Assembly (NCBI RefSeq): GCF_006716745.1
Contig: NZ_VFPP01000001.1
Coordinates: forward strand, 2,108,001-2,172,000
Source of the DNA: Saccharothrix saharensis
Lineage (GTDB): Bacteria; Actinomycetota; Actinomycetes; Mycobacteriales; Pseudonocardiaceae
Reading direction: 5' to 3'
Length of the DNA stretch: 64,000 bases
A program made the position numbers and the translations under genes. A model generated the notes under the pieces. That model was given only the letters and a program-made list of their open reading frames with translations. It was not told where the DNA came from and did no database searches. Below, piece by piece: positions 7,370 through 28,797 of this stretch (positions are counted from its first letter, which is position 1; every line of letters starts with the position of its first letter).

Positions 7370-7399
7370 GTCGTGCTCCTGTTCTCGACTGGTGGGGAT

Positions 7400-10993: not shown

Positions 10994-11007
10994 ACATCCA
11001 TTCCTAT

Positions 11008-11025: not shown

Positions 11026-11063
11026 TCAATTGCATCGACGCTGATCAGCAGCGCCGGCTGTGG

Positions 11064-12809
11064 TCAGCGGAGCAGTCTGCGCAGGAGCATCGCCAGGCCT
11101 TCCACGACCAGGACGACGCCGAACGTGATGAGCATGATCAGCGTCACGACCTCGTACTCACGCGTTCGGGTGGCTTGGAGCAGCATGTAGCCGATCCCGC
11201 CGCCTCCCACGATGCCCAGCAACGTGGCGGCACGGACGTTGACGTCGAGCTGGTACAGGACGTGCCCGACGATCGCCGGCGCGCTCAGCGGCAGGATGGC
11301 GGTGAAGTAGGTCTGCAGACGGGAAGCTCCGGACGCGCGCAGTGCGTCCCGTGGTCCGGGGTCGACTTCCTCCAGGGAGTCCGCGACCAACTTGCCCAGC
11401 AGGCCGATCGCGCCGACGCCCAAGGCGAGCGTTCCCGCCACGGGCCCGAGACCGACGATGACGACCAGCACGATGGCCAGGACCAGCTCGGGCAAGCCGC
11501 GCACAGCCAGCACGAAGCCGCGGCAGATCAGGTAGACCCACCGATTGGGTGCGACGTTGCGCGCCGCCATCGACCCGACCGGCAGGGCGAGCACGGCGCC
11601 GATGAGCGTGGCCCCGAGTGCGATCTGGACGGTCACGACCATGGCCTCCACCAACTGCGGCAGCACACCCGCGGCACCGGGCGGCCAGAACAACCCGACG
11701 GTGCGAACCGCTCCCCCGACGCCCCCGCTCAGACCGCTCGCGAGCACCCCGCTGGCCTGCACCGCCCACACCAGCCCAGCGGCGAACACCGCCCAGTAGG
11801 CCGTGCGCAACAACCGGCGCGCAGTCCACCCGGGGGTGACACGCACGGGTGCCGCGCTCCCCCGCGCGGCTGTCGCGCGCGGCCGGTCGGGTTCTGCACG
11901 TGCTACCCGCCGACGCACCACCGACACGAGCGTGTGCCGGTTGTGGCGGTCGAACTCGGCGGAGTCGCCGAGCAGCGCTCGGCGAAGGGCCGTGGACAAC
12001 AACTCGACCACGACGCACAGCACCACGAGGATCAGTGCCCAGGAGATGCCCAGGCCGAAGTCCAGCCGGGCGAACGCGTGGGACATCTCCATGCCGACCC
12101 CGAGCACTCCGACGTACCCGAGGATCGCCGAGACCCGGATGTTGATGTCCAAGCGGTGCAGCGCCACGGCCACGAAAGCCGGGAGCACCTGCGGGAGGAC
12201 GCCGGCCAGCAACTGCTGAGCGCGACCTGCCCCGGCGGCTCGAAGCGCCTCGCGGGGACCTTCGTCGATCTGCTCGACGGCGTCGGCGTAGAGCTTGCCC
12301 ACCATGCCGATGGAGTGCAGGCCCATGGCGAGCACCCCCGGCAGCACGCCGAGGCCGAACAGCCGCACGAACACGATCGCCATGACGAGGTCGGGCACCG
12401 CCCGGGCCGCGACGATCACGCTGCGAGCCGCCAGCCGGCTGCCCTCGCCCCTCTTGGTGTTCGACGCGGCCCAGAAGGCCAAGGGGATGCTCAGGCACAC
12501 CGAGAGGACGGTGGCCAGCACCACCGCCGACAAGGTCAGGCCGACGTGGCGCAGCACCTCGTCCAGCGGTGGCGGTTCCAGCGGCCAGATCCGCTGCACG
12601 AAGCGCACGCCGTTGGCGTAGCCGTCGATCAGAGTGGCGACGTTGACGCGCAGGTCCACCAGCGACCAGATCCCGGCCGCCGGCAAGCCGACCAGGAGGA
12701 CCGCGGTCAGCACGCCGCGCGGCCGTGGCAGGGGTGGTGCGGCGGGCCGCGGCGGCGGGCCTCCCCCCGATCGCGTCGCGGGAGGGCGGGTGGGGGTTCC
12801 GGTGCTCAT
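11064..12809 (-). CDS. Fused PhnE-PhnE-type ABC permease
   Basis: A 581-residue permease holding two PhnE-like halves in one chain, each with about six membrane segments and an EAA coupling loop (EALRAAGAG in the first half; DALRASGAS in the second). Single PhnE proteins are about 270 residues, so this is a tandem fusion that replaces a homodimer. The N-terminal 35 residues are Pro/Arg-rich and cytoplasmic. It overlaps the ATPase stop by four bases (ATGA). With the PhnC- and PhnD-like genes upstream it forms an importer for an oxyanion such as phosphonate, phosphite, arsenate or an arsonate. The link to the arseno-polyketide genes points to an arsenic oxyanion, which is an inference. Confidence 0.85.
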   Translation of the reverse strand: MSTGTPTRPPATRSGGGPPPRPAAPPLPRPRGVLTAVLLVGLPAAGIWSLVDLRVNVATLIDGYANGVRFVQRIWPLEPPPLDEVLRHVGLTLSAVVLATVLSVCLSIPLAFWAASNTKRGEGSRLAARSVIVAARAVPDLVMAIVFVRLFGLGVLPGVLAMGLHSIGMVGKLYADAVEQIDEGPREALRAAGAGRAQQLLAGVLPQVLPAFVAVALHRLDINIRVSAILGYVGVLGVGMEMSHAFARLDFGLGISWALILVVLCVVVELLSTALRRALLGDSAEFDRHNRHTLVSVVRRRVARAEPDRPRATAARGSAAPVRVTPGWTARRLLRTAYWAVFAAGLVWAVQASGVLASGLSGGVGGAVRTVGLFWPPGAAGVLPQLVEAMVVTVQIALGATLIGAVLALPVGSMAARNVAPNRWVYLICRGFVLAVRGLPELVLAIVLVVIVGLGPVAGTLALGVGAIGLLGKLVADSLEEVDPGPRDALRASGASRLQTYFTAILPLSAPAIVGHVLYQLDVNVRAATLLGIVGGGGIGYMLLQATRTREYEVVTLIMLITFGVVLVVEGLAMLLRRLLR

Positions 12810-13612
12810 AAGCGCTCGCCCGCGGTCACGGGTGCCATCGGAGCGCTGACCTTCTCGTAGACGCTCATCACCGACGAGGCGTCCAACGCCCCCGTGGACG
12901 CCTCCATGACCACCTCACCCAGGCGAAGGCCGACGATCCGGTCGGCCCAGGACAGCGCCATCTCGACCTGGTGCAGGCTGCACATGACGGTCAGGCGCTG
13001 TTCCTCGGCGATGTCGCGGATCAACTGCATCACCGTGCGGGCCGATTCGGGGTCGAGCGATGCGACCGGTTCGTCGGCGAGGAGGATCTCGGGGCGCTGC
13101 ATCAGGGCCCTGGCGACGGCGACGCGCTGCTGTTGCCCGCCGGACAACGTGTCGGCTCGCTGGAACACCTGGTCGGCCAGTCCCACGCGATCCAGGTGGT
13201 CGATCGCTTCGTGGCGCAGTGCCCTGGGGTAGCTGCGCAGTCCCAGCCTGGGCCCGCGCAGGCGCCCCAACGCGCCGGTGCAGACGTTCTCCAGCACGGT
13301 GAGCCTGCCGACGAGGTTGAACTGCTGGAAGATGAAGCCGACCCGGCGTCGCAGCAGCCGCAGCTCACGGGGTCTGGCCCGCCCGACGTCGGTGCCCAGC
13401 ACGGTGACGGCGCCCGATGTCGGCCGGTGCAGGCCGTCGACGTGCCGGAGCAAGGTGGACTTGCCCGAGCCCGACAGGCCGAGCAGGACCACGACCTCAC
13501 CCGGCGCGACTTCCAGGCTGATGCGGTCCAGCGCGGTCACGTCGGGATCGAAGCGCTTGGTGACCTGCTGGAACCGGATGACGGACTCCGACGGCGGCGG
13601 AGAGGCTGTCAT
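12806..13612 (-). CDS. PhnC-type ABC transporter ATPase
   Basis: A 268-residue ABC ATPase of the phosphonate-import (PhnC) family. Walker A is GLSGSGKST (residues 45-53), the signature is LSGGQQQRVAVARAL and Walker B is ILLADEP, followed by the D-loop ASLDPES. It energises uptake through the fused permease encoded by the overlapping next gene, with the lipoprotein gene upstream. The substrate is set by the binding protein and not by this subunit. Confidence 0.9.
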   Translation of the reverse strand: MTASPPPSESVIRFQQVTKRFDPDVTALDRISLEVAPGEVVVLLGLSGSGKSTLLRHVDGLHRPTSGAVTVLGTDVGRARPRELRLLRRRVGFIFQQFNLVGRLTVLENVCTGALGRLRGPRLGLRSYPRALRHEAIDHLDRVGLADQVFQRADTLSGGQQQRVAVARALMQRPEILLADEPVASLDPESARTVMQLIRDIAEEQRLTVMCSLHQVEMALSWADRIVGLRLGEVVMEASTGALDASSVMSVYEKVSAPMAPVTAGERL

Positions 13613-13684
13613 GTCGTCCTCGACTGATCGGCGGCGAGCGGCGTGCTCACGGCGGTCGGGCAGTGGTTGCTCGGGGCGTCGGGC

Positions 13685-14602
13685 TCAACCGGTCTTGCAG
13701 ATCTCGGCCTGGGTGGTGCGGCAGATCTCCCGGATCGGGTTGTAGAACTCGTCCGTGGTCGGCATGAAACCCCAGAACCCCGCCACTGCGTCGACACCGA
13801 GGGCGGTGGCGTTCGCCTCGGTCGTGATGGCGTCGACGATCTTCTCCTGGAGGTCCGGGCTGAGCGTGTCGATCATGGCCATCGGCGAGTTCACGATCGG
13901 CTCCGACGTCCAGATCTTCTCGTAGTCGGCGGGGTTGATCTCGCCCTGCTCCGGCAGGACCTTGTCGAACAGGGTGTCGCGGACGGCGCCCGCGTCGCAG
14001 TCCCCGTCGCGCACCGCGAGCATCGAGGCGTCGTGCCCACCCGCGTACTTGTGGCTGTAGTCGACCTTCTCCTTGAGCCCCTTCCCGGCCAGCGCGCCGA
14101 GGGGGTAGAGGTAGCCCGAGGTCGAGTTCGGGTCGACGAAGCAGATCTGCTTGCCCCGCAGGTCCTCCAGCCGCTCGATGCCGCTGCCGACCTTGGTGAC
14201 CAGGTAGGACTTGTAGCTCGGTTCGCCCTGCGCATAGGCCTCGGAGGCGACCGGCACGATCCCGACCCCGGAGTCCTTGGCCAGGACGTAGGACAGGGGG
14301 CCGTACATGGCCAGGTGGACGGTCTTCGCCCGCTGGCCCTCGATGAGCGCCGCGTAGTCGGTGACCACCTGGAAGTCGATGGTCTTGCCCGTCTCCCGCT
14401 CGAGCACGTCGATGACGGGCTGCCACAGCTGCGCCATCGAGTTGGCGTTCTCGTACGGGATGACGCCGAACACGATGGTCTCGGGGTCGGTGGCGGCGTT
14501 GTTGTTCGCGGCGCTCTCGCCGCAGGCGGTCAGGCCCAGCGCAGTCACTGCGGCGGCCGCGGCCGCGGCGATGCGCCGCGACAGCGTGGTGTGGCTGAAC
14601 AT
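13685..14602 (-). CDS. PhnD-like solute-binding lipoprotein
   Basis: A 305-residue lipoprotein. The signal peptide ends in the lipobox LTAC, with Cys27 as the lipidation site. The mature part is a PhnD-type periplasmic-binding fold (IVFGVIPYENANSMAQLWQP, MYGPLSYVLAKDSGVG, FVDPNSTSGYLYP, and the DAGAVRDTLFD hinge region). This family includes binders of phosphonate, phosphite, methylphosphonate and the arsenite-sensing AioX. The conserved Tyr/Ser/Thr residues for an oxyanion headgroup are present, so arsenate or an arsonate is plausible. It sits 78 bp after the decarboxylase gene and 72 bp before the ATPase gene, which suggests that the cluster controls its own arsenic or precursor supply. Confidence 0.85.
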   Translation of the reverse strand: MFSHTTLSRRIAAAAAAAVTALGLTACGESAANNNAATDPETIVFGVIPYENANSMAQLWQPVIDVLERETGKTIDFQVVTDYAALIEGQRAKTVHLAMYGPLSYVLAKDSGVGIVPVASEAYAQGEPSYKSYLVTKVGSGIERLEDLRGKQICFVDPNSTSGYLYPLGALAGKGLKEKVDYSHKYAGGHDASMLAVRDGDCDAGAVRDTLFDKVLPEQGEINPADYEKIWTSEPIVNSPMAMIDTLSPDLQEKIVDAITTEANATALGVDAVAGFWGFMPTTDEFYNPIREICRTTQAEICKTG

Positions 14603-14680
14603 CGTGGTCGCTCTTCTCTCTTCATTGCCGGGGACGGTCGTCGAGCCGATCGAGCCCGGCCGGCGGCGGGTGGGTGCCGG

Positions 14681-15802
14681 TCAGACCTGGGCGGTCCGGT
14701 GTGCGGCGAGGGCTGCGCTGAAGCGGTCACGGATGCCGGTCGACGTGTGGGCCGAGGTGGCGCGCGGGGCCATGGGACCCGTGCGCGGCCGCGTGGGGAC
14801 GACCAGGAGGTGCGGTCCAGGGGTCTGACGGGCGGCGGCGATGCGCTGCTCAAGCGCCTGGACGCCATCGCAGCGCGACGCCGAGGTGTACCCGCACGCC
14901 AGCGCCACCCCGTCCAGCTCGGTGGTGGACGCGGTCGTGGGTTGTCCACCGGTCGACTCGTGGATGCCGTTGTCCAATACGACGTGGATCAGCCTCGCCG
15001 GACGCCGGTGCCCGATGACGGAGAGGGTCCCGAGGTGCATCAGAGCCGCCCCGTCACCGTCCAGGACGATCACCTCCTGGTCCGGATCGGTCGTCGTGAT
15101 GCCCAACGCGATCGAGGACGCGTGCCCCATGGAACCTTGCATGTAGAAGTTGGCCGGCCGGTCGTCGACGCCGAACAGCTCACGGCCGGTGTAACCGGTG
15201 GTCGCCACGATCGGGCTGTCGCCCGCGAGCGCGACCACCGCCCTGATGGCGTCCGCGCTGTCGATGCGGTCCGGGTTGACGGGGGTGCGTGCGGTCACCT
15301 TGCCGACGGAGCCCTTCTCCACCAGCACGAAGGGCGACTGCCCCTGGTTCATCGAGGCCAGGGCGTGGTCGAGCAGCCGGTCGAACTCGGCTGGTCCGTC
15401 GCCCGCGTGCAACGTCTGGTGCGGTGCCCCCAGCGCGTCCAGCAGCGGCGCGGTGGCCGGTCCCATGATGGCGTGTTGCGGCTCGTCATCGTCCGGGTCG
15501 GGGAAGCCGCGCAAGCTCACGAACGTCAACACCGGGATCCGGTACACCATGACCAGGGAGGTCAGGGGGTTGACCAGGTTGCCCAGCCCCGAGTTCTGGA
15601 TCATCACGTACGCGCGGCCACCGGCGAGCGCGACACCTGCCGCGGTGGCCAGCGCGGCTCCCTCGTTCGCGGCCGCGACGTAACGCCCAGGGGTCTGGCC
15701 GAGCAGGGCGATCGGTCCGCCGAAGAACGAGCACGGCACGCCGCTCGCGGCGGTGAACCCCCGGGCGTCGAGAGCGTCGCAGAACTTCTCCGCGGTGATC
15801 AC
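14681..15802 (-). CDS. Phosphonopyruvate decarboxylase homologue (predicted arsonopyruvate decarboxylase)
   Basis: A 373-residue thiamine-diphosphate enzyme, the usual length of phosphonopyruvate decarboxylase. The N-terminal PYR domain holds the activating Glu in AANEGAALATAAG, and the C-terminal PP domain has the TPP/Mg motif DGDGAALMHLGTLSVIG with the closing Asn in VVLDN. Family reaction: phosphonopyruvate to phosphonoacetaldehyde plus CO2. In bisenarsan-type clusters the homologue is thought to act on arsonopyruvate, giving arsonoacetaldehyde. It is coupled to the KAS III-like gene by a GTGA overlap. Substrate preference cannot be read from the sequence; it follows from the mutase and EPSP-synthase homologues nearby. 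Confidence 0.88.
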   Translation of the reverse strand: MITAEKFCDALDARGFTAASGVPCSFFGGPIALLGQTPGRYVAAANEGAALATAAGVALAGGRAYVMIQNSGLGNLVNPLTSLVMVYRIPVLTFVSLRGFPDPDDDEPQHAIMGPATAPLLDALGAPHQTLHAGDGPAEFDRLLDHALASMNQGQSPFVLVEKGSVGKVTARTPVNPDRIDSADAIRAVVALAGDSPIVATTGYTGRELFGVDDRPANFYMQGSMGHASSIALGITTTDPDQEVIVLDGDGAALMHLGTLSVIGHRRPARLIHVVLDNGIHESTGGQPTTASTTELDGVALACGYTSASRCDGVQALEQRIAAARQTPGPHLLVVPTRPRTGPMAPRATSAHTSTGIRDRFSAALAAHRTAQV

Positions 15803-16938
15803 CGCGCTCCTCCTCGGCTGTGCGGCGGTGTCAGGCGCACGCGGTTGACGTGCGGCGCCGGGGTGCTCGGTGCCACCGGTGGTGGTGTCGTGGCCCTGCC
15901 GTCAGCCCAGTCGGGCTGGTGCAGGATGCGGACCACCGCGCAGGTGATCGACGTGCCTCCCCCGTGGGCGACCATCAGCACGTTGTCCCCCGGTCCCACC
16001 TGCCGGGTCACGACGAGGTGCTCCAAGCCGACGATCTGGTCGTTGACGGTCATGTGCCCGAACTGGCGGCCGAACTCCAGCAGTCCTTGCTCCGGGCGCA
16101 ACCCCATGGGGTCGAGGATGACCTTGAGATAGCTCTCCTGGCCGGTGAACACGTGGGTCACCCGGCTCACGTCACCCGGACCGAGGCCGGCTTCCGCGAG
16201 AGCGGACAGCGCCAGTTCGGCACGGAGCTCACCCTGGCGACTGATCACCTTCTCGACGCTGGTGTCCGTGTCGTCGCCGAAGGACGCCATGCGCTCGCGG
16301 AAGTCGACCTGCCGGCTGTTGTCGTGCGAAGGCGGGAAGACCGGCTCGTTGCCGCGGTACAGGTGTTCCAGGTCGGAGGTGGACCCGGACCTGATCGAGA
16401 GCAGTCTGGCGAAGCCGCCGTTCTTCGACAGCACGACCGCACTCGCGCCGTCACCGATCACGCCGTTCTGCAGGCCGAACGCCCACCGGTTGAAGTTCGG
16501 CACGCCGACGTTGTCGGCCCCGGTGACCACGGCGACCCTGCGCTCCTGAACCGCCATGAGGTACGAGGCGGCGACCTCCAACGACCCGACCACACCGCTG
16601 CACGCCTGCCAGAACAGCAGTGACGGCACGTCCCGGTCGGTGATGTGGCGCAGGATGTAGTGGTGTGGTGACCACCCGATGGGGCCCTGGGCCCAGCTGT
16701 AGGCGTGCAGGTGCACGTCGATGTCCGCGCCGCTGTGTCCGGAGCGCTGCACGGCCTGTCGCGCCGCCCGCACCGCCAGGTCCGGTGCGGGGGTGTCCCC
16801 CGCGACCGCCGCACCGGTCCACCCGAACCACTCGTAGTCCTCGGGGTCGTAGAGCCCGAGCTCGACGGCGTCACGGGCGTCCATGATCCCCGGTATGACC
16901 GCGCCGAGGCCGGAGACGTAGATGCCGGGTGTTTTCAC
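15799..16938 (-). CDS. Divergent ketoacyl-ACP synthase III-like enzyme
   Basis: A 379-residue thiolase-fold protein of the FabH/KAS III type. The nucleophile is Cys113 (FWQACSGVVGS). The canonical His of the PHQAN motif appears as Gly266 in FTGQESY, with His262 four residues before, and the canonical Asn is His295 in FGHMTVND, next to Asp300. This rules against an ordinary decarboxylative FabH and recalls CerJ-type acyl- or ester-transfer enzymes with changed triads. About 40 C-terminal residues are Pro/Arg-rich and extra. It overlaps the PKS stop (GTGA) and the decarboxylase start (GTGA). A likely job is transferring the PKS product onto a hydroxyl or amine acceptor, such as a 2-hydroxyethyl arsonate; this is inference. 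Confidence 0.8.
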   Translation of the reverse strand: MKTPGIYVSGLGAVIPGIMDARDAVELGLYDPEDYEWFGWTGAAVAGDTPAPDLAVRAARQAVQRSGHSGADIDVHLHAYSWAQGPIGWSPHHYILRHITDRDVPSLLFWQACSGVVGSLEVAASYLMAVQERRVAVVTGADNVGVPNFNRWAFGLQNGVIGDGASAVVLSKNGGFARLLSIRSGSTSDLEHLYRGNEPVFPPSHDNSRQVDFRERMASFGDDTDTSVEKVISRQGELRAELALSALAEAGLGPGDVSRVTHVFTGQESYLKVILDPMGLRPEQGLLEFGRQFGHMTVNDQIVGLEHLVVTRQVGPGDNVLMVAHGGGTSITCAVVRILHQPDWADGRATTPPPVAPSTPAPHVNRVRLTPPHSRGGAR

Positions 16939-19900
16939 CGTGCCTGCCCTCCCGGAAGCGACATCGTGGACGACTGCTCGTCGACGATCTCGGCGATCTT
17001 GGTGATGGATCCGCCGCTGAGCAGCTTCGCCGGCGGGATCTTCACCCCGAACTCCCGCTCGATCCGCGTCCGGAACTCCATCGCCATCAACGAATCCATC
17101 CCCATCTTCTTCAACGCCGTACCCGCCGAAACCCGGTCAGCCCGCAACCCCAGGACATCCGCGGCCAGACCGATCAGGCGCTGCTGGACGTCGGCATCGA
17201 CGACCGGGTTCGGGATGACGGCGACGACTGCGGGCGGTGTGACCACCGTGGTGACGGCAACCGGCTTCGGATCGGGATCGGGCGCGGTCGTGTGCGCAGG
17301 AGTCCCCGCCGGCGTGGGTTCGGCGGACGAGGCGTCCGAGACCCCGAGCTCGCCGAGTATCTGGCCGATCCTGGTGATGGATCCGCCGCTGAGCAGCTTC
17401 GCCGGCGGGATCTTCACCCCGAACTCCCGCTCGATCCGCGTCCGGAACTCCATCGCCATCAACGAATCCATCCCCATCTTCTTCAACGCCGTACCCGCCG
17501 AAACCCGATCAGCCCGCAACCCCAACACCTCCGCGGCCAATGCGACCAGGCGCTGCTGCACGGCTTCCGACGCGATGGGCAGGTCCGAGGTGGGTTGTTC
17601 GACGACCGTGACGACGGCGGCGGGTGGTGTGGCCGTGACGGGCGGGGGCTCCGGCGTCCCGGTGACGACGCGTGCTCCCGGCATCGCGGCGAGCCGGACG
17701 GAGGGCACGTCGACGCGCGGCGCGGGTGTGTTCGCCGGCTGGTTGCCGAGCACGAGGCGCAGCAGTGGCGCCGAGGCGGCTCGCGGGTAGCTGCGTGCCC
17801 ACTCCTGCCACTCCACCGGCAGCACGACCGTGCCCACCGGGGCGTCGGCGGCATCGAGCAGGTCGCCGAGGATCTCGAACGCCTCATCAGGGCTGAACTT
17901 GGCCATCCCTCGCGGGAGGACGACCCGGTGGTCCTCCCGCTCCTTGCGGGCCATCATGCCGACCGTGCTCCAGAAGCCCCAGTTGACCGCGGTCGCGGGC
18001 AGTCCGTCCTTCATCCGCTGGTGAGCAAGGGCGTCGAGGAAGGCGTTGCCTGCGGCGTAGCTGCCCAGCAGCGGTGAGCCGAGGATCGCCGCGGCGGAGG
18101 AGAACAGCACGAAGTGGTCGAGTTCCCGCTCACGGGTGAGCTGGTGCAGCGCCCATCCGCCGTCGACCTTCGACCGGGTCACCGAGGTGATGTCCTCGGG
18201 CCGCAGGTCTCGGACCGGGGTGTAGTCCACCGAGCCCGCGGCGTGGAACACACCACGCAACGTGGGCAGCCCCGACCTCGCCCGCTCGTCGAGGACCACG
18301 CGCATGGCATCGACGTCGGCGACGTCCACGGCGGCGTACTCGACGTCCGCTCCTCGTGAGGCCAGGTCGCTCAGCACTGCTGTGCCGGCGGTGCGCGGGT
18401 CGTGCTCGTCCAGGCGGTCCCACGTGTCCACCGGGGGCAACTGCGTGCGGCCGGTCAGCAGGAGGTGCCGGGCGCCGTTGTCGACCAGCCACCCGGCCAG
18501 ACGGGCTCCGATCCCGCCCAGTCCACCGGTGATCAGGTACGTGCCGTCGGATCGCAACGGTGGGGCGGTGCGCTCGTGGGGTGCCGTGCCGCTGCTCGGC
18601 CGCTGCTGCTCCCGGAGTTCCACGACCACCTTGGCGGTCGCCCGCTGGGAGCCGGCGAGGTGCGCAGCGGTCACGTCGGTCAGCAGCCGGTGCGGGAGCG
18701 GACGCAGCAACCCCTGGTCGAACATCAGGCACACCTGGCGCAAGGAATGCCCCAGTCGGGCGGGCCTGCGTCGGAGCAGCGCGTCGATGTCGACGGCGTG
18801 GATGGACAGGTTGCGCTCGAACACCTCCGGCTCCATGGCCGAGCCGGATCGTCCGAAGGCGACGTACCGGCCGGCCGGGGCCAGCACCGGCAGGGACTCC
18901 CGGAGCGACGGGCCGTGCGGTGGTTGGACGACGACGTCGGCGCCCTCGCCCGCCGAAGCGGTGAGCACGGCGTCGTAGGTGTTCCCGGGGCCGGCGTCCG
19001 CATTCGCCGTGATCGCGTGCACCTCGGCCGCCAGAGCCCGGGCGATCTGCGCCACCGCGGTACCGGTGTGGCCATCGGCGTGGTGGACCACCACGTGCTC
19101 GTCGGGTTCGAGCCCGGCCAGCGTGACGAGGGCATGGTGCGCGGAGAGGAACGCGTGCGGGATGGTGGCCGCCTCGGCACCGCTGAGCCCGTCCGGCTTG
19201 TGGGCCGCGATCGCGGCGGGCACGACGACGCGTCCCGTGAGCGCTCCTTCGGCCAGGGTGACGACCTGGTCACCGATCCGGAAGTCCCGCACCTCCGGGC
19301 CGACCTGTTCGACGACACCGACCACGTCGTGCACCGCCGCCTCGACCGGGACCGGTGGTGTGCCCGCCGGTGAGTCCATTGACGCCAGACCGACGTGGGT
19401 GACGCTGATCGCGATCTCGCCGACTTCGGGCGCGGTCACCGGTGTCGGTGACCGATCAGGCGCGCGTCGGACGAGACGAGCGGCGAAGAGGGTTCCGTCG
19501 CGGAACGCCACCTGGTCTTCCTCGTCGTCGCGCAGCATGTGCTCGACGGCTGATCGCAGGCTGGCCGGTTGGCGGTCGAGGTCGATGAGGCTGGGCCTCG
19601 ATGCGGGGTGCTCCGCGGCGAGAGTGCGGCCCAACCCCCACGTGGTGGCCTGGAAGGGGGTGTGGACCCGGTCCGTCGGCAGGACCGCCTGGGCGGACCC
19701 CGTCACCATCCACAGCCTCGGGTCGTTCGCCGGAGCGGCGGCGTCGAGGGCTTGCACGAGGGCGGCCACGCTGTGGCAGGCAAGGAGCTGTGCGCGTTGC
19801 ACCTCGGCGTCCACCGCGTCGTGCGGTGGGGTGGCGTCCAGGCTCCACAGGTGCACGATCCCGTCGATCCGCGCCTCGGCGCCCACCTCGCGCAGGAGGT

Positions 19901-22900: not shown

Positions 22901-23879
22901 CGAGGTAGTCCAGGTCGCCCGAGGCCACCCCGGCTTGGCGATGTGCCCGCTCGATCACGCGCCGCTGACCGTCGACGCCTGGGGTGACCAGGTAGCCGCT
23001 GCTCTGACCGTCGTTGCCCACGGCACTGCCGAGGATGACCGCGCGCACCCGGTCACCGTCGCGACGGGCCAGCCGGAGCGGTTTGAGCACCACCATGCCG
23101 ACGCCGTCGCTGCGGACGAACCCGTCGGCCGACGCGTCGCCGAACTTGCAGCGCCCGTCATCGGCCAGCATCCTGGCCCCGGAGTAGACGGTGCCCTCTT
23201 CCGGCAGCAGCACCAGGTTGCTCGCGCCCGCCAGCGCGAGTTCGCACTCACCCGCCCGGATGGTCTGCACCGCCAGGTGCACGGCGGTCAGGGACGAGGA
23301 GCAGGCGGTGTCCACGGTCATGCTGGGCCCGCGCAGGTCGAAGGCGAACGCCAGCCTGCCGGACGTCATCGCCCTGGCGGCGGCGCCGGTCAGGCCGTAG
23401 AACTCCAGCTGCTCCGGGGTGCGGTACTGCAGGTGCCAGTAGTCGCCGCCGAGCTGGCCGATGAAGGTGCCCGCGTTGCTCCCCGCGATGTCGTCCACGG
23501 ACTGACCGGCGTCCTCGATCGCCTCGTACCCCACCTCGAGGAGCAGCCGCTGTTGCGGGTCCATCCGCGACGCCTCGCGAGGCGAGATTCCGAAGAACCG
23601 GGTGTCGAACTGGTCGATCCGATCCAGGAACCCGCCCCAGCGGCTGCTCGTCCGCCCCGGCGACGAAGGCGGTGATTCGAAGATCGCGTCGATGTCGTAC
23701 CGGTCCGGCGGGATCTCGGTGATGGCGTCGACACCGGCGCACAGGTTCGCCCAATAGGTGTCGAGGTCATGGGCACCGGGGAACCGCCCGGCCATGCCGA
23801 TGACGGCGATGGGTTCGGCTTGCGGGGTGGCGACGCCGACGGTGACGTGCTCGGTGTCGGCCCCGGGTTTGATCCTCAT
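16935..23879 (-). CDS. Type I polyketide synthase KS-AT-DH-(ER-like)-KR-ACP-ACP
   Basis: A 2314-residue single-module synthase. KS: DTACSSSL with Cys near 193, EAHGTGT and KTNIGHAEAAAG. AT: GHSMGES with Ser near 648 and a FASH specificity motif near 748, which leans to methylmalonyl but is atypical. DH: HQVQGVAVFP with His near 969 and LLDAAAH near 1136. ER-like: an alcohol-dehydrogenase-type region whose nucleotide loop reads HHADGHTGTAV near 1601 instead of the usual GGVG pattern. KR: TGGLGGIG near 1788 and Ser/Tyr in SSAAAILGS and LGSYAAGN near 1940. Two ACPs (GMDSLMAM near 2137 and 2261) are almost identical. No thioesterase is seen. Tandem ACPs and a lone module suggest iterative use. 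It starts 13 bp after the mutase gene. Confidence 0.93.
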   Translation of the reverse strand: MRIKPGADTEHVTVGVATPQAEPIAVIGMAGRFPGAHDLDTYWANLCAGVDAITEIPPDRYDIDAIFESPPSSPGRTSSRWGGFLDRIDQFDTRFFGISPREASRMDPQQRLLLEVGYEAIEDAGQSVDDIAGSNAGTFIGQLGGDYWHLQYRTPEQLEFYGLTGAAARAMTSGRLAFAFDLRGPSMTVDTACSSSLTAVHLAVQTIRAGECELALAGASNLVLLPEEGTVYSGARMLADDGRCKFGDASADGFVRSDGVGMVVLKPLRLARRDGDRVRAVILGSAVGNDGQSSGYLVTPGVDGQRRVIERAHRQAGVASGDLDYLEAHGTGTKVGDAVELEVFGSVLGSGRPLDQPCLVGSVKTNIGHAEAAAGMAGLIKAILVLQHGVVPPNLHQHSPNPAIPWDALPIRLPRELVPLPDRGRPPLAGVSSFGLTGTNAHVVLTTDHPGVGEPAAPDEPAPALSAQLLTLSGNTPEARDALARSYLDFLASPTADAQWWRNVAHSAASRRTHHDSRLAVVADSPAEAAAALRDFLDAGAAPGVSAGDSIDEARPRIAFVFPGQGSQWIGMGRELLDTEPVFLDALRGCDQVIAAENGWSVIDLLRGQDTDRFAELDVIQPTLWAMEVALAALWRSWGIEPDVVLGHSMGESAAAVVAGALSLADAGAVICRRSRVAKRRSGHGTMAWVELSATDAAQAIAGHEHEVSIAAANSPTSTLLSGDREALAAILAELDRREVFNRWINVDFASHGPQMDEILDDLRAELAGIRPRPGTIPIHSTLLNDVVDGSQLDAHYWARNIREPVDFVGSVTAELAAGPIVFIEVSPHPVLVSSIDTTIRAVGGEGAAAPSLRREERERATMLATLGVLYTRGVRIDWAAVTGGGHFVDLPRYPWQRDSYWFEPRDAEPVPRSAPAAKAPAVPASPTASPPSAVHVRHPLLGAEVSAPHGVRAWEGSVDLADHPYLADHQVQGVAVFPGTGYVELAAAAAREVLGDVPVAVGEVTYREAIFLDRSQPTSIRTTLDTIGARLQLRVHSRAGEDGPWTLNGEAVIDRTAPTPPARTADVAALRARCSRHQDAEEFYARHAARGNQWIGSFRGVREVWIGRDEALAALSAPHALLAAFERHRFHPALLDAAAHMLVAARPDVVEGEDGAFVLGGIDRVLLHRGPGTDLWSHAVLRPEARADSFTGDIRVFDTTGALVAELLGLRLQYLLGTAPAPLTAQATRPAQPADRRRSPHEPATHGAWLHDLTWIPVARSVATGTPASSGAWLVLTDSGPVGRAVVQRLRDRGRRVFVATAAATRATAGTDRYRVDPGSRDDLLYLLREVGAEARIDGIVHLWSLDATPPHDAVDAEVQRAQLLACHSVAALVQALDAAAPANDPRLWMVTGSAQAVLPTDRVHTPFQATTWGLGRTLAAEHPASRPSLIDLDRQPASLRSAVEHMLRDDEEDQVAFRDGTLFAARLVRRAPDRSPTPVTAPEVGEIAISVTHVGLASMDSPAGTPPVPVEAAVHDVVGVVEQVGPEVRDFRIGDQVVTLAEGALTGRVVVPAAIAAHKPDGLSGAEAATIPHAFLSAHHALVTLAGLEPDEHVVVHHADGHTGTAVAQIARALAAEVHAITANADAGPGNTYDAVLTASAGEGADVVVQPPHGPSLRESLPVLAPAGRYVAFGRSGSAMEPEVFERNLSIHAVDIDALLRRRPARLGHSLRQVCLMFDQGLLRPLPHRLLTDVTAAHLAGSQRATAKVVVELREQQRPSSGTAPHERTAPPLRSDGTYLITGGLGGIGARLAGWLVDNGARHLLLTGRTQLPPVDTWDRLDEHDPRTAGTAVLSDLASRGADVEYAAVDVADVDAMRVVLDERARSGLPTLRGVFHAAGSVDYTPVRDLRPEDITSVTRSKVDGGWALHQLTRERELDHFVLFSSAAAILGSPLLGSYAAGNAFLDALAHQRMKDGLPATAVNWGFWSTVGMMARKEREDHRVVLPRGMAKFSPDEAFEILGDLLDAADAPVGTVVLPVEWQEWARSYPRAASAPLLRLVLGNQPANTPAPRVDVPSVRLAAMPGARVVTGTPEPPPVTATPPAAVVTVVEQPTSDLPIASEAVQQRLVALAAEVLGLRADRVSAGTALKKMGMDSLMAMEFRTRIEREFGVKIPPAKLLSGGSITRIGQILGELGVSDASSAEPTPAGTPAHTTAPDPDPKPVAVTTVVTPPAVVAVIPNPVVDADVQQRLIGLAADVLGLRADRVSAGTALKKMGMDSLMAMEFRTRIEREFGVKIPPAKLLSGGSITKIAEIVDEQSSTMSLPGGQAR
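17001..17166 (-). repeat. ACP-encoding direct repeat, copy A (ACP2)
   Basis: This segment encodes the last ACP of the PKS. It matches 17373-17538 at 162 of 166 positions, with only one mismatch in the first 152 bp. Nucleotide identity this high, including synonymous sites, points to recent duplication or gene conversion. Confidence 0.9.
17373..17538 (-). repeat. ACP-encoding direct repeat, copy B (ACP1)
   Basis: This is the partner of 17001-17166, offset by 372 bp (124 codons). It encodes the first of the tandem ACPs, while the linker between the copies is unrelated in sequence and rich in Pro, Thr and Ala. Confidence 0.9.
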
Positions 23880-23892
23880 CGACGCGAGTCCT

Positions 23893-25476
23893 TCAGTTGG
23901 TGGTTGGTGCGGCTCGCACCGGCCGACGATGTGGTTCGGCGGCTTCGGTCAGCAGCCGGGGAGCCGTCATGGTGGGTGGGACGGGCAGGCCCAGCAGTTG
24001 CAGCACCGTGGGGCCCACCGAGGGCAGCGCGGCACCGGTGACCCGGGGGTCGAGGGCGTAGGCCGACTCCGGTGCCGGGACCAGGACGCACGGCACCGGG
24101 TTGTGGGTGTGGCCCCCGTAGGGGCGCTGTTCGCCCGTGTTGCCGGTCTTGACCATCTGCTCCGCGTTGCCGTGGTCTCCGACCAGGAGCACCCACCTGC
24201 CCCGTGCCCGCGCGGCGGCGCAGATCGTGGCGACGGCGGTGTCCACGGCGCCTGTGGCGACCACGGTGGCCTCGTAGTCACCGGTGTGGCCGACGACGTC
24301 GATGTTGGCGAGGTTCGCCACGACCACCCCGACGTCGTCGCGCTCAGCGGCCTCGACCACCCGGCGGGCGACCTCCGCCACGTTCATCCGCGGCTGGGCG
24401 ACGTAGTCGTCCCCCACCGCGGTGGGGACGAGCTGGTGCTCCTCGAACGGGCGGGCCGACGGGTCCCGTCCGTTCACGTAGAACGTGACGTGCTCGAACT
24501 TCTCCCGTTCGGCGATCCGCACGGATCGCACTCCGGCGGCTTCGAGCGCGTCGGCGAGGCCGCCGGAGGCATCGGCACGGCGCACCAGCGGGACCACCTC
24601 GGCCGTGGTGTCGTACTGGGCGAGGCTGAGCAGCCGCACGGACGAGCGGCCGGTGTCCCGCAACCGGGTGTGCACCATGTCGACCAGCGGCGAGATGCGG
24701 TCACTGCGGAAGTTGGTGAACAGCACGACGTCACCGTCACGGACCGGGTGGCGGGAACCGTCGCCGGAGACGACGGTTGCCGGGATCCACTGGTCGCCGG
24801 CCTGGCCGTCCACCGCGGCCCGCGGCTCGGGCACGACCCGCTCGGCCTCGGCGTCGACGATGAGGGAGCACGCGATCGCGGTGAGGTCCGCCTTGCCGCT
24901 CTTGTCCATCGCGAAGTTGCGGCCCACGACGGACACGCACCTGCCCGCGCCCGCCCGGTCCGCGTGCCCGAGCAGGACGTCGAGGTGCTGCCCGGCGCTG
25001 CCGTCGGCGACGTCACGACCGTCGGTGATGGCGTGCAGGAACACCTGCCGCAGCCCCGCGTCGGCCGCAGCGTGCAGCAACTCGGCGACATGGGCGACAT
25101 CGGCATGGATGCGGCCGTCCGAGCACAGCCCCACCAGGTGCAGCGCGCCGCCGTTGGCGGCCAGTCGTGTGCACGCGGCGACGAGGTCGGGGTGACGGCG
25201 CAACTCCCCGCTGTCGACCTGGCGCTGCACCAACAGGCTGTCGTACTCCAGCGGACGACCGGCGCCGATGACCATGTGCCCGATCTCGGAGTTGCCCACC
25301 ACGCCGTCGGGCAGTCCGACCGCAGTGCCCGAGGCCGGCAGCAGCGCGGTGGGGTACCTGGTCAGCAGGTCGTCCAACGCCGGAGTCACCGCCGCGCTGA
25401 TGGCGTTGCCCGGCGCGGGCGGGGCGTGGCCCCACCCGTCGAGGATGAGCAGGATGCCGTTGTGCCGGTCGCTCAC
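23893..25476 (-). CDS. bsnN: Cofactor-independent phosphoglycerate mutase homologue, predicted C-As bond-forming mutase (BsnN-like)
   Basis: A 527-residue alkaline-phosphatase-superfamily protein of the iPGM type. Metal and catalytic motifs are kept: ILDGWG (Asp13), GNSEIGH with nucleophile Ser63, [20 protein letters not shown] and [11 protein letters not shown]. Differences from true glycolytic iPGM are visible: [11 protein letters not shown] in place of GRYYAMDRD, and [12 protein letters not shown] in place of NFANPDMVGHTG. Published work on bisenarsan in Streptomyces lividans proposes that the homologue BsnN rearranges arsenoenolpyruvate to arsonopyruvate, making a C-As bond from As(V). 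Its GTG overlaps the stop of the EPSP-synthase homologue (GTGA), so the two are made together. A primary glycolytic role is unlikely here given the altered motifs and partners. Confidence 0.88.
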
Positions 25477-26792
25477 GCGTCACCTCGGCGCAGGCCGTCG
25501 AGGCGCTGCCAGAACGTCGGGAAGGACTTGGCGACGCAGCCGGGGTCCTTGATCACGACGCCAGGGGTCCGCAGCCCCATGATGGCGAAGGCCATCGCGA
25601 TGCGGTGGTCGTCGTAGGTGTCGATCACGGCGCCGCGCGGCGCCGAACCGCCGTGAATGGTCATCGTGTCGATCGTGGTGTCGACCGTGACGCCCATCTT
25701 GCGCAGCTCGGTGCTCACGGCGTCGATGCGGTCGCACTCCTTGAACCGCAGGTTGCCGATGCCGGTGATGTGGGTGTTGCCCGTGGCGTAGGCGGCGACG
25801 ATGGCGAGGGTGGGCACGACGTCGGGCATGTTCGACATGTCGATGTCGATGCCGGTGAGGGCGCCACCCTCGAGCGTGATCGAGTCCGTGTCGGCGTTGG
25901 CGGTGCAGCCCATCCGCACCAGCGCGTCGACGAGCCCGACATCGCCCTGCACGGACGCGCGGGTGATGCCGGGGATGCGCACGCGGCCTCGGAGGATCGC
26001 GGCGGCGGCCAGGAAGTACGACATGCCCGAGGCGTCGGGCTCCACGGTGACCTGACCTGCCTGGTAGCGCTGGCCGGCGGCGACGCTGAAGGACGTGTAG
26101 CCGTCGCGCTCCACGACGACGCCGTTGCGCTTCATCGCCTCGACGGTCATGTCGACGTAGGGCTTGGACAGCAGGTCGCCCACGATCTCGACCCGCACGT
26201 CGTTCTGCGCGTAGGGCGCGCTGATCAGCAGGCTGCTGGTGAACTGGCTGCTCACCGTGCCGTCGACCCGGGTGTCGCCGCCGACCAGGGCCGGCCCCTC
26301 GACCGCGATGGGCGGCGAGCCGTTGCCGCGCAGCGCGGTGGCCGTCACCCCCAAGGGCGCGAGCGCTTCCAGCAGGTGCGCCATCGGACGCTCCTGCATG
26401 CGGTCGCTCCCCGTGAGCACCGTGCGTCCCCGGGCGAGCCCCGCCATGGTGATGAGCAGGCGGATGGGCGTCCCGGCGTTGCCCATGTGGATCTCCCGCG
26501 CGGGCGCGGTCATGGGGTTGCCGGTGGGTGTGACGGTGACGATGTTGCTCGACTCGTCGATGTCGACCTCGACGTGGCCGAATGCGCGCAACGCCTTCGA
26601 CAGCAGGATGGTGTCCTGCGACAGCAGGGCGTTGTGCAGGGTGGTCGGCCGGCTGCTCAAGCCGGCCATCGCGAGGAACCGGTTGGTGTAGCTCTTCGAG
26701 CCGAGGACTTGGACCGAGGCGTCCACCTGGTCGAGGGTGGCGATCTCCCACTCCGGTAGCGACAGCACGGCGTTGTCTGCGGTGGACGTCAT
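25473..26792 (-). CDS. EPSP synthase (AroA) homologue, predicted arsenoenolpyruvate synthase
   Basis: A 439-residue enolpyruvyl transferase with the AroA inside-out barrel motifs: [11 protein letters not shown] (Lys33), [63 protein letters not shown] and KSFPTFW. All PEP-contacting positions seem present, while the N-terminus and shikimate-side loops are divergent. In bisenarsan-type clusters this homologue is thought to move enolpyruvate from PEP-derived chemistry onto arsenate, giving arsenoenolpyruvate. The pairing with a mutase and a phosphonopyruvate-decarboxylase homologue fits that path and not aromatic biosynthesis. An SD (GAGGAG) precedes the ATG. The gene is 87 bp after the SDR gene and overlaps the mutase gene. 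Confidence 0.9.
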
Positions 26793-26879
26793 GGGGTTGG
26801 CTCCTCGTTGTGCGGCGGCTCGGGGGCCGGTTGTGCGGGTTTGGCGGTGAGGTCGGGCGGTGGCGCCGGGTGGGTGCGC

Positions 26880-27632
26880 TCAGGGCTCTCGGTGCACCTT
26901 GTGCTGAGCGGCCTGGGCACGCGGGCGCACGACCAGCAAGTCCACGTTGACGTGAGGTGGGCGGGTCACCGCCCAGGTGATGGCGTCGGCGACGTCCTCG
27001 GCCGTCAGGGGCTGGGCGACGCCCTGGTAGACGGCCGCGGCTTTGGCCGCGTCGCCTCGGTAGCGGTTGAGCGAGAACTCCTCGGTGCGGACCATGCCCG
27101 GGGCGATCTCGATGACGCGGACCGGCCGATCGACCAGTTCCATGCGCAGCGTGCCCGCGAGGGCGTGCTGCGCGTGCTTGGCGGCGCTGTACCCGCCGCC
27201 ACCGTCGTACACGGTGAACGACGCGGTCGAGGTCAGCACGACGACAACACCGTTGCCACCGGCGACCAACTGCGGGAGCAGGGCCTGCGTCAGGTGGAGC
27301 GAGCCCATGACGTTGGTCTCGAACATGGCGCGCCAGTCCTGCGGTCGCGCCTCCTCGACCGGTTCGGTGCCGATGGCGCCACCCGCGTTGTTGACCAGGA
27401 CGTCGCACCGCGGCAGCGATGCCGCGAAGTCGCGCACCGCGGCCTGGTCGGTGACGTCGACCTCCGCCACGACGGCCTCGGCTCCGTCGTCGCGGATCCG
27501 GCGGGCGACCGCTTCGAGCCGGTCGAGCCGGCGAGCGACGAGCACGACGCGGTGCCCGGCGGCGGCGAGGCCGCGTGCGGTCGCCGCGCCGATGCCACTG
27601 CCGGCGCCCGTGATGACGGCGCTCGGTTGCAA
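26880..27632 (-). CDS. Short-chain dehydrogenase/reductase
   Basis: A 250-residue SDR with TGAGSGIG at the NAD(P) site, NNAGG and a catalytic Ser-Tyr-Lys set in STASFTVYDGGGGYSAAKH. The Arg after the second strand (LVARRLDRLE) favours NADPH. The TTG start was chosen because GGGGA lies 4-8 nt ahead and the Rossmann strand begins at once; the longer frame has no similarity. Between the unknown 135-residue protein gene and the EPSP-synthase homologue, its best-fitting role is reduction of arsonoacetaldehyde to 2-hydroxyethyl arsonate, the building block of bisenarsan. That step is inferred; a polyketide tailoring role is the alternative. Confidence 0.85.
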   Translation of the reverse strand: MQPSAVITGAGSGIGAATARGLAAAGHRVVLVARRLDRLEAVARRIRDDGAEAVVAEVDVTDQAAVRDFAASLPRCDVLVNNAGGAIGTEPVEEARPQDWRAMFETNVMGSLHLTQALLPQLVAGGNGVVVVLTSTASFTVYDGGGGYSAAKHAQHALAGTLRMELVDRPVRVIEIAPGMVRTEEFSLNRYRGDAAKAAAVYQGVAQPLTAEDVADAITWAVTRPPHVNVDLLVVRPRAQAAQHKVHREP

Positions 27633-27667
27633 GTCGTCCCCAGTCCTGTGGTGGTGGTCGAAGGCGC

Positions 27668-28075
27668 TCAACGCCGACCGATGACCTTGGTGCAGCACAA
27701 CCAGAGGTAGCCGGCCGGTGGAACGGTGTAGAAGTCGACGCCGTCGACCGTGCGGCCGGAGGTGATCTCCCCGCTCACGAAGGTGATCGGATGCCCGCTG
27801 GTCCGCGCGGACGGCCAGTGCTCGATCGGGGCGAACTCCTGCGGCGCCTGGGCGGTGTTCTCCACGCACAGCAGTTCCACGGTGTGATCAGCGCTGGTGC
27901 GCAGGACAGCGCGCCAACCCGGTGCGATGCGGACGGCTTCGGCCGTCGCGGTCCCGGACAACGCCGGTGCCGCGAGCGAATCGGGGTGCGAGCACCTGCG
28001 CGCGGCCGACTCCTGCGCCCGCGGACGCGGGTGAGCGGCGCGGTCGTCGACGAGCGCCTCGGTCAGCGGTGTCAT
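27668..28075 (-). CDS. Conserved-context hypothetical protein with a C-terminal Cys-Cys pair
   Basis: A 135-residue protein I do not recognise. The first 45 residues are Ala/Arg/Pro-rich and probably loose. The rest alternates short hydrophobic strands (AVLRTSADHTVELLCVENT, ITFVSGEITSG, VDFYTVPPAGYLWLCC), as in a small beta-barrel or cupin-like fold. The vicinal cysteines near residue 128 sit in a hydrophobic strand. The ATG shares one base with the TGA of the amidotransferase-like gene (TGATG), and the SDR gene follows 35 bp on. An arsenic-handling or partner role for the adjacent CTP-synthase-like protein is possible, but nothing in the sequence proves it. Confidence 0.7.
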   Translation of the reverse strand: MTPLTEALVDDRAAHPRPRAQESAARRCSHPDSLAAPALSGTATAEAVRIAPGWRAVLRTSADHTVELLCVENTAQAPQEFAPIEHWPSARTSGHPITFVSGEITSGRTVDGVDFYTVPPAGYLWLCCTKVIGRR

Positions 28076-28797
28076 CAGGCGCTCACCGAGGTCTTGCGTC
28101 CGGCGTTGGCCACCGCGGCGTCCAGGAAACCCTGCACGATCGGGTGAACCGAGTCAGGCGTGCTGGACAGCTCGGGCTGGTACAGGCACGCCGTGAAGAA
28201 CGGATGACCTGAGATTTCGAGGGCGCGCGGCGCGGCGGCGTCGTCCCAGGCGCTGAAGCGCACGTCGCCTTGAGTGGCTTTGTCGAGGAACTCCTGGACC
28301 ATGCCGTAGTTGCACTGCAGGATCTCACGCACCCGCGTCGCACCCCGGTAGATGGCCGACAGGTTGGAGCCTTCCCGGACCGACAGCCCGACCTTGTGGT
28401 CCGCGCTCTGCACGCACGTCGGCGGCAGGATCAGTTGCTCGATGGGGCCGAGCTCGTCGCCCAGCTCCGCGGTTTCCTCCATGTGCAGGACGTTCTGCGC
28501 GTACTCGAGCACCGCGCTGTAGAAGCCGCCGCACGTGCCGAGGAAGGGCACGCCGTTCTCGCGCGCGAACCGGATGGCACGGTGCACGCCTTGCTGGGCG
28601 TGGTAAGGCGCGCCCGGCACGACCCAGATCGCGTCCCAACCGGACAGGTCGGTGTCGTCGGTGATCCCCCGGGTGGGCACCCACTCGTAGTGGAAGCCCA
28701 ACTCGGGCAGCAGTGCCTCGATCCTCGGGTGCGCGGGTTCGTCGTGGTTGTACTGGTCACCGACCAGTGCCACCTTGGCGTGGGGCGCTGAGCGCAT
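28075..28797 (-). CDS. CTP-synthase-like class I amidotransferase-fold protein lacking the catalytic His
   Basis: A 240-residue stand-alone domain matching the C-terminal glutaminase half of CTP synthase (PyrG). The nucleophile elbow is LGTCGGFYSAVLEYA with Cys89. The usual FHPE motif reads YQPE (Gln207, Glu209), so the His of the Cys-His-Glu triad is gone and glutamine hydrolysis should fail. Bisenarsan-type clusters are reported to carry a CTP-synthase-like gene, whose role is unclear. It could bind a nucleotide or an arseno intermediate, or use Cys89 for another chemistry. It is the first gene of the minus-strand block, with SD GAGGAG ahead of the ATG and a 919-bp divergent region upstream. 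Confidence 0.82.
   Translation of the reverse strand: MRSAPHAKVALVGDQYNHDEPAHPRIEALLPELGFHYEWVPTRGITDDTDLSGWDAIWVVPGAPYHAQQGVHRAIRFARENGVPFLGTCGGFYSAVLEYAQNVLHMEETAELGDELGPIEQLILPPTCVQSADHKVGLSVREGSNLSAIYRGATRVREILQCNYGMVQEFLDKATQGDVRFSAWDDAAAPRALEISGHPFFTACLYQPELSSTPDSVHPIVQGFLDAAVANAGRKTSVSA

Follow-up and report, generated by a model that had tools for sequence, protein, structure and literature searches.

We analysed a 64-kb stretch of DNA (the window) from the 8.92-Mb single-contig genome of Saccharothrix saharensis and found on its minus strand a gene cluster that, judged from its sequence, would convert arsenate to (2-hydroxyethyl)arsonic acid and esterify this compound with a methyl-branched polyene acid. 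We put the probability of this reading at about 0.65. The cluster resembles that for bisenarsan in Streptomyces lividans 1326 and S. coelicolor A3(2), as described in the consulted parts of the review PMC12159101. That the locus is a BsnM/BsnN arsonate cluster is very likely: a gene of the BsnM clade stands next to one of the BsnN clade, and both are accompanied by a bsnJ-type gene and by genes for arsenic regulation and resistance. An earlier sequence-only reading had predicted a related arsono-polyketide and an accessory set different from that of the model cluster. Our analysis supports the relationship, with the chemistry remaining predicted, and also the different set, which comprises an enoylreductase (ER) domain without its motifs, a TcsD-like acyl-CoA/acyl-ACP dehydrogenase (ACAD), a PhnCDE importer replacing one of the Pst type, and ArsP.

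The gene calls were checked against Pfam and NCBIfam models with the family cut-offs, and all the genes named earlier were found where they had been placed, on the minus strand, to which all coordinates in this paragraph refer. In the predicted pathway, the BsnM homologue (25473..26792; 420 bits, cut-off 287), which has the fold of 5-enolpyruvylshikimate-3-phosphate (EPSP) synthase, would let arsenate replace the 3-phosphoshikimate of EPSP, giving arsenoenolpyruvate. The BsnN homologue (23893..25476; 398 bits, cut-off 331) has the fold of the cofactor-independent phosphoglycerate mutase (iPGM) and is the putative mutase forming the C-As bond. Its Ser63 would take over the arseno group and return it to the enolate carbon, and we infer that the serine-bound arseno intermediate is captured at carbon by the pyruvate enolate, which would yield arsonopyruvate. 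A phosphonopyruvate-decarboxylase-type enzyme (Ppd, BsnJ-like; 14681..15802; TIGR03297, 363 bits, cut-off 312.5) would convert this to arsonoacetaldehyde, and a short-chain dehydrogenase/reductase (SDR; 26880..27671; assigned by Pfam, with 66-75% identical homologues in bsn loci) would reduce the aldehyde to (2-hydroxyethyl)arsonate. The SDR start assigned earlier, at 27869, was not upheld: the cluster homologues are mostly 251-257 aa long, and a TTG at 27671 or, alternatively, at 27632 is likelier. The acyl chain would be built by a one-module polyketide synthase (PKS; 16935..23879) condensing propionyl with methylmalonyl units; domain scans and alignment gave the order ketosynthase (KS), acyltransferase (AT, motif NVDFASH), dehydratase (DH), degenerate ER, ketoreductase and two acyl carrier proteins (ACP). 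Since the ER motifs are lost, the double bonds introduced by the DH would all be retained, and the ACAD (5382..6539) likely installs a gamma,delta double bond on the first enoyl diketide. A KSIII-like acyltransferase (15799..16938) likely shifts the chain from the ACP to its Cys113 and on to the arsonate hydroxyl, and would in this way both form the ester and release the chain. If the chain is extended three times, as it is for bisenarsan, this route would lead to a trimethyl-polyenoic acid esterified with (2-hydroxyethyl)arsonate, with the formula C14H23AsO5 for a triene (calculated m/z of the protonated form 347.0834) or C14H21AsO5 for a tetraene (345.0678); bisenarsan is C14H27AsO5 (351.1147), and its acyl part is 2,4,6-trimethyl-2-nonenoic acid, saturated from C4 to C7. 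The cluster would be activated by an ArsR regulator and its product exported by ArsP and a major facilitator superfamily (MFS) pump, and PhnCDE may re-import arsonates.

The loss of ER function was predicted from alignment, profile scores and phylogeny. The degenerate ER occupies residues 1478-1755 of the PKS (18615..19448, minus strand). We aligned 81 PKSs, comprising that of the window, four from other loci and 76 of 120 listed hits (the remaining 44 were dropped because their length was outside 1800-2450 residues). Intact ERs carried the blocks NYRDVL, LIHTATGGTG and SKRDI, and the window ER had ASMDSP, VVHHADGHTG and a gap at these places. A profile trained on 50 intact ERs gave 472-628 bits for eight intact PKSs on which it had not been trained (472-517 for six of them; the remaining two, L090 and L091, nearly duplicate training rows). 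Four unrelated modular ERs encoded in the S. saharensis genome reached 216-234 bits. The window ER scored 140 bits, its clade 26-156 and a further member 117, and L093 gave no match. In a tree of the KS-AT part of 39 of the 81 PKSs, the window PKS fell into a clade of eight ER-lost PKSs (support 100). Seven of these are linked to bsnMN, either by locus (window, L092, L093) or by contigs equal in length to those of BsnN hits (P0323, P0346, P0357, P0358), and P0329 is the remaining member. About 145 residues of the ER are left in L092, P0357 and P0358 and none in L093, which implies that the clade can dispense with this domain. The S. rubrogriseus PKS P0250 (52 sequences), which we take to be the PKS of the S. 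coelicolor/S. lividans group, was placed in the ER-intact part of the tree, apart from the window PKS. The bisenarsan-type PKSs of Streptomyces have the NVDFASH motif in identical form. The window PKS and the S. lividans-group PKS share a family but not a clade, and the loss of the ER motifs led us to class the locus as a variant and not as a bisenarsan cluster. The acyl chain is probably more unsaturated than that of bisenarsan. Altered ER motifs were also seen in related one-module PKSs that form a second group, apart from this clade (P0294, P0298, P0300, P0303, P0308, P0313, P0316 and P0341).

The predicted role of the ACAD would offer a single reason for both the loss of the reductase and the gain of a desaturase. 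Its best structural match was 6u1v, according to the entry title TcsD of FK506 biosynthesis, with 58% identity and 493 bits compared with 152.5 bits for the next solved ACAD, and TcsD was nearest both by sequence and by predicted fold (a model from five sequences, mean pLDDT 75). HliR of the haliangicin pathway is described as closest to TcsD and gamma,delta-desaturates a 2-methylpent-2-enoyl thioester (PMC4768178, parts consulted). Propionyl extended by one methylmalonyl unit without ER action would give this same 2-methylpent-2-enoyl diketide, and the loss of the ER would therefore keep the ACAD substrate available. Homologues with 65-67% identity were present in four fetched loci, all of them ER-lost, so that with the window five of the six ER-lost loci with neighbourhoods carry the gene. 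The other bsn loci showed no ACAD within the DNA fetched, mostly 10 kb on each side, so that more distant genes would escape. In the literature examined, where no search was aimed at this question alone, we met no report of a TcsD-like enzyme in an arsenic pathway. We give slightly less than even odds to the ACAD making the product a tetraene.

By its profile scores (ChlB3 268, DpsC 178, CerJ 156 and FabH 31 bits), the KSIII-like enzyme is a member of the ChlB3/DpsC/CerJ group and not of the FabH group. Its putative triad Cys113-His295-Asp300 aligns with Cys113-His296-Asp301 of ChlB3, and its gene adjoins the PKS gene in all 11 of the 27 compared neighbourhoods that hold a KSIII-like gene (the locus ends within the PKS in L010, L013 and L019). 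CerJ transfers a malonyl group to a sugar hydroxyl (PMC9573744, parts consulted), and the consulted parts of PMC12159101 name no enzyme for the ester-forming step of bisenarsan. The triad of the ChlB3/CerJ type together with the adjacency to the PKS led us to propose the KSIII-like protein, a possible counterpart of bsnFB in the bisenarsan cluster, as the ester-forming enzyme.

The product could instead be bisenarsan or an equally reduced relative if the remnant ER works or if enoyl reduction is supplied in trans by an ER from another place in the genome. The remnant is still 40% identical over 300 residues, and ER/MDR-like sequences occur at 16 further places, so that residual or trans-supplied enoyl reduction may occur. 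The rest of the core corresponds to the bisenarsan-type gene set of Streptomyces. Moreover, the second motif-defined ER-lost PKS group reached 245-361 bits and so outscored the intact modular controls, and the profile score alone is therefore no proof of a loss of function. Further observations weigh, like these, against the polyene ester. The ACAD was not found within the fetched stretch of the sixth ER-lost locus, YIM PH 21723. The predicted formulae assume propionyl plus three methylmalonyl units, with the starter and the cycle number taken from bisenarsan. The best PDB relatives of the SDR were YdfG-type and other enzymes, and sulfoacetaldehyde reductase came fourth. The family alignment of BsnM revealed, at the thresholds used, no conserved active-site change marking a new substrate. 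Finally, the CTP-synthase-like (CTPS-like) protein, the small beta-sandwich protein, the MDMPI protein and the molybdopterin oxidoreductase (MoOR) lie outside the proposed steps. However, the NYRDVL, GGTG and KRDI motifs are all lost from the window ER, and the domain is shrunken or gone in its clade, which makes a reduced product unlikely.

The layout of the locus also fits a biosynthetic role. The order on the minus strand, read 5' to 3', is CTPS-like, small protein, SDR, BsnM, BsnN, PKS, KSIII-like, Ppd, PhnD, PhnC, PhnE-PhnE, ArsR, ArsP, MFS, MDMPI and ACAD; four adjacent gene pairs in the block overlap by 4 bases. The core order is repeated in four other genomes, and the grouping of these genes is thus not due to chance. 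The limits 11064-28797 drawn earlier proved too narrow, because the genes kept near bsnMN in relatives span 5382 to at least 32707. The presence near the core of PhnCDE, ArsP, an ArsI-family C-As lyase and ArsO enzymes could mean that the genes chiefly import and degrade or detoxify environmental arsonates and phosphonates, with the polyketide part secondary. Against this, the BsnM-BsnN-PKS-KSIII-Ppd genes are tightly packed, partly overlapping and conserved in order, which fits synthesis, and we regard a mainly degradative role as quite improbable.

Still less probable is a phosphonate product, for which BsnN would be a phosphoenolpyruvate (PEP) mutase of another fold, the decarboxylase would act on phosphonopyruvate and PhnCDE would serve phosphonates. 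The decarboxylase, the PhnC ATPase (12806..13612, minus strand; TIGR02315, 291 bits, cut-off 266) and the fused PhnE-PhnE permease (11064..12809, minus strand; TIGR01097, 444 bits in two stretches, cut-off 217) do exceed the cut-offs of phosphonate families. The PhnD-type binding protein (13685..14602, minus strand; PF12974) reached 223.6 bits, below the PhnD cut-off of 261 and above that of the broader TIGR01098. An ordinary PEP mutase, whose absence would leave this role to BsnN, was not found above the family cut-off in the complete genome, which gave four weak matches (weak matches also occurred in 6 of 14 control genomes); the decarboxylase is thus left without a known phosphonate partner. 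BsnM would be purposeless in phosphonate synthesis because PEP already exists in the cell, yet BsnM and BsnN occur together in 27 of the 27 neighbourhoods compared, and arsenic genes lie on the flanks of the cluster. Moreover, in S. lividans the disruption of the homologues abolishes the arsenic product, with bsnM, bsnN and bsnJ all required, the disruptants are rescued by (2-hydroxyethyl)arsonic acid, and EPSP is proposed as the enolpyruvyl donor (review PMC12159101, parts consulted).

The phylogeny of the two enzymes supports the assignment to the arsonate pathway. A grouping of the EPSP-synthase and iPGM homologues with primary-metabolism enzymes had been named beforehand as a refuting result, and in our trees both stood apart from these enzymes and with cluster-borne BsnM and BsnN. 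In the BsnN tree (46 rows, SH-aLRT support only), the window protein lay inside a clade of 37 actinobacterial rows separate from 7 iPGM rows (SH-aLRT 99). BsnM trees were built from 57 rows (omitting the alternate AroA rows L025-L083) and, with bootstraps, from 30 rows. The window BsnM grouped with cluster-borne BsnM and separately from 13 AroA rows, including the AroA of its own genome (support 99/98 in the 30-row tree). This separate AroA is encoded elsewhere (G000:C1:5757296) and is 39% identical to BsnM; it forms a very long branch, and its placement in the BsnM trees is unsure. Because the family models label BsnM and BsnN as housekeeping enzymes, such a cluster is easily overlooked by name.

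The active sites of both enzymes were compared in family alignments. Among 143 BsnM, 3 non-actinobacterial BsnM, 56 AroA and the AroA of S. saharensis, sixteen BsnM residues were conserved family-wide (K33, S34, R38, T108, R135, S181, S182, Q183, Y212, D324, K351, E352, R355, H396, R397 and K422), at positions that we take to be the contacts of EPSP synthase with shikimate 3-phosphate and PEP. The Asn of GNAGT and the Asn of NxRxKE are kept in the window BsnM relative to the E. coli enzyme and fell below the thresholds of the family alignment. The conserved contacts would fit EPSP as the enolpyruvyl donor. In the alignment of 140 BsnN with 7 iPGM (numbering by alignment to 1ejj), BsnN conserved Ser63, D13, D393, H397, D434, H435, H456, H124, R154, R186, R257, R260 and K326, which presumably comprise the nucleophilic serine, the residues of both metal sites and the majority of the substrate contacts of iPGM. 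Arg192, present in 7/7 iPGM, was replaced by Lys in 140/140 BsnN. The two planctomycete BsnN in the alignment retained Arg192 and had Val in place of Arg154, and neither residue pattern is thus common to the entire pathway. The idea that the two proteins are surplus primary-metabolism copies of AroA and iPGM lying beside a PKS by chance, which would suit their conserved active sites and scores above the aroA and pgm cut-offs, is hardly credible in view of their separate clades, the separate genomic AroA and a linkage kept across genera and phyla.

For the comparison with bisenarsan, the S. lividans locus was represented by Streptomyces stand-ins having the same PKS family (L009/L091/L128, L011/L090 and P0250). 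Synteny with these bsn-type clusters was partial yet clear, extending to BsnM-BsnN, PKS-KSIII, Ppd, the CTPS-like protein and MoOR. Apart from these genes, the stand-ins share with the window the one-module architecture of the PKS with a methylmalonyl-type AT motif and tandem ACPs, and an ArsR regulator; the SDR is shared with the S. physcomitrii stand-in. In contrast to the bisenarsan cluster, the window has a degenerate ER, the TcsD-like ACAD, MDMPI and ArsP, it has PhnCDE where the bisenarsan cluster has a Pst-type importer, and its genes form a single run in a different order. Related clusters were found in S. gobiensis (L160-L161) and another Streptomyces (L162-L163), which share the order CTPS-like, small protein, SDR, BsnM, BsnN, ER-lost PKS, KSIII, Ppd and PhnD, also carry ACAD, MDMPI and MoOR, and have BsnM and BsnN 61-77% identical to those of the window. 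The loci of Saccharopolyspora erythraea (G052) and Saccharomonospora saliphila share the CTPS-like gene, the small protein, BsnM, BsnN, the ER-lost PKS, KSIII, Ppd, PhnD-PhnC-PhnE, ACAD, MDMPI and MoOR. However, they differ in having a PhnW/AepZ-type transaminase, a Pst-type importer and a methyltransferase, and no close SDR was present in the stretch read.

This difference recurs across the bsn loci. In 31 neighbourhoods (27 plus four more; presence was judged within the stretch fetched), a close SDR occurred in 10, a PhnW-type transaminase in 7, both in none and neither in 14. The transaminase of S. erythraea scored 332 bits, below the PhnW/AepZ cut-off of 361, and those of L066 and L051 were above their cut-offs. 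Since S. erythraea and Saccharomonospora have the transaminase and no close SDR, their loci would represent an amine/amide branch passing through 2-aminoethylarsonate. BsnM, BsnN, decarboxylase and transaminase genes were also found together in four planctomycete loci (L060, L066, L158 and L159) and in a Rhodospirillales metagenome-assembled genome (L051, with BsnN in two frames). An ArsI-type gene was present in 3 of the 4 planctomycete loci, and that of L060, the one scored, was above the family cut-off; a second iPGM-like gene lay elsewhere in all three genomes checked (L066, L060 and L051). These cassettes of Planctomycetota and Rhodospirillales are a possible source of 2-aminoethylarsonate outside the actinobacteria.

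A search of the phylum at an E-value of 1e-90 matched 10 of 396 genomes. Eight of the matches have 37-41% identity and are probably ordinary iPGM; BsnN-like matches were confined to the genome of S. saharensis and a single further one (54%). In the own family, at 1e-50, 5 of 297 genomes matched, the own included, and 20 genus-mates and 272 further genomes were without a match. The genus of S. canus gave 16 of 199 genomes and Planctomycetota 3 of 294, the centre genome being included in both counts. The scan of named loci covered the best 80, of which 21 were actinobacterial, and is no census. Some of the loci have other gene sets. Streptomyces sp. NBC_01708 has bsnM-bsnN on a linear plasmid of 316 kb (L089:11054-38776), together with an aspartate-aminotransferase-like gene, ACR3, ArsC, ArsO and MoOR; neither Ppd nor a PKS was found within the 41 kb read, and this set perhaps makes arsonoalanine or otherwise uses arsonopyruvate. 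In S. chumphonensis (L094:1234-4986, L022), bsnMN accompany a short PKS of 1250 aa in which Pfam finds KS, AT and ACP only, and a different acyl group is therefore expected; this gene set also occurs in Streptomycetaceae MP113-05 (L023). In eight loci (L006, L008, L012, L016, L018, L020, L021 and L024), the 21 kb fetched held bsnMN but no gene for a Ppd, an SDR, a transaminase or a PKS, and arsonopyruvate would there take another route.

The remaining genes of the minus-strand run are mostly kept in related clusters. The CTPS-like protein (28075..28797) resembles the C-terminal part of CTP synthase (NF004836, 202 bits, below the cut-off of 260). It keeps the glutaminase Cys, and Gln stands at what we take to be the place of the catalytic His in 14/14 rows shown of 19 aligned, so that it is probably not a glutaminase. 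The small conserved protein (27668..28075) has homologues of weak similarity in many bsn loci and, from its predicted fold, may be a free-standing beta-sandwich resembling the C-terminal domain of GH13 enzymes. An ArsR-family regulator (10628..11035; PF01022, NF033788) has 68-71% identical homologues beside MoOR in the S. erythraea and Saccharomonospora loci. It is followed by the ArsP-type permease, a predicted organoarsenical exporter (9744..10697; PF03773 ArsP_1, 159 bits; homologues of 60-65% in L005, L007 and L130), the MFS exporter (7477..8979; PF07690; 63-65% homologues in three related clusters) and the MDMPI/DinB-type protein, similar to mycothiol-dependent enzymes (6557..7426; PF11716; 53-57% homologues in four related clusters).

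On the neighbouring plus strand, family scans and alignment identified a MoOR conserved near bsnM (29717..32242). A MoOR with a Tat-type signal was seen in 14 of 27 bsn neighbourhoods, where it might oxidise arsenite to feed the pathway or reduce arsonate; the Tat-type signal and a Cys at the presumed Mo-ligand position were read from sequence motifs. The same strand carries an ArsI/CadI-family enzyme (C-As lyase family; 32324..32707; NF041414, 186 bits, cut-off 116), a PHO4-family anion transporter that is a possible arsenate/phosphate route (32969..34027; PF01384; 61-65% homologues near bsnMN in L008, L015 and L024), an ArsR-family regulator (34482..34859; PF01022), a fusion of ArsR with a low-molecular-weight phosphatase that is arsenate-reductase-like and whose open reading frame (ORF) probably starts too early (35961..36905; PF12840 and PF01451), and an aquaglyceroporin (MIP; 36906..37616; PF00230). 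Two ArsO-like genes lie on the minus strand, namely an ArsO-type flavin monooxygenase (35087..36406; NF040505, 418 bits, slightly below the cut-off of 425), whose domain begins near 36040 and whose ORF start is therefore probably too early, and a second ArsO-like flavin enzyme (38012..39313; NF040505, 236 bits, below the cut-off). No methyltransferase or radical S-adenosylmethionine (SAM) family was detected among the scanned ORFs of 5382-39313, some small ORFs being outside the scan. Of eight loose matches to a presumed ArsR-operator-like pattern, four cluster at 922-1160, close to where an ArsR-acetyltransferase gene inside ORF 43-2826 probably begins.

Few natural products contain a carbon-arsenic bond, and in the literature examined the SAM-independent formation of a C-As bond rests on one compound, bisenarsan; among the papers listed by the searches, one review only (PMC12159101) treats the pathway. 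The S. saharensis cluster adds a second concrete and testable product prediction, in which the difference from bisenarsan would be explained by a reductase lost and a desaturase gained. We suggest, tentatively, that it would yield the first arsenic polyene, with a conjugated trimethyl-nonatetraenoyl cap in which an iterative PKS with a dead ER retains all its double bonds and the TcsD-like dehydrogenase supplies a terminal one. On the same tentative view, actinobacteria, Planctomycetota and Pseudomonadota share an arsonopyruvate module whose product enters either an alcohol branch, where the SDR leads to esters, or an amine branch, where the PhnW-type transaminase leads to 2-aminoethylarsonate and amides. 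The presence of the SDR or of the transaminase would then be a simple genetic switch predicting esters or amides. If they work as proposed, the cassettes of Planctomycetota and Rhodospirillales would extend this chemistry beyond the actinobacteria and represent a hidden source of organoarsenicals in the arsenic cycle.

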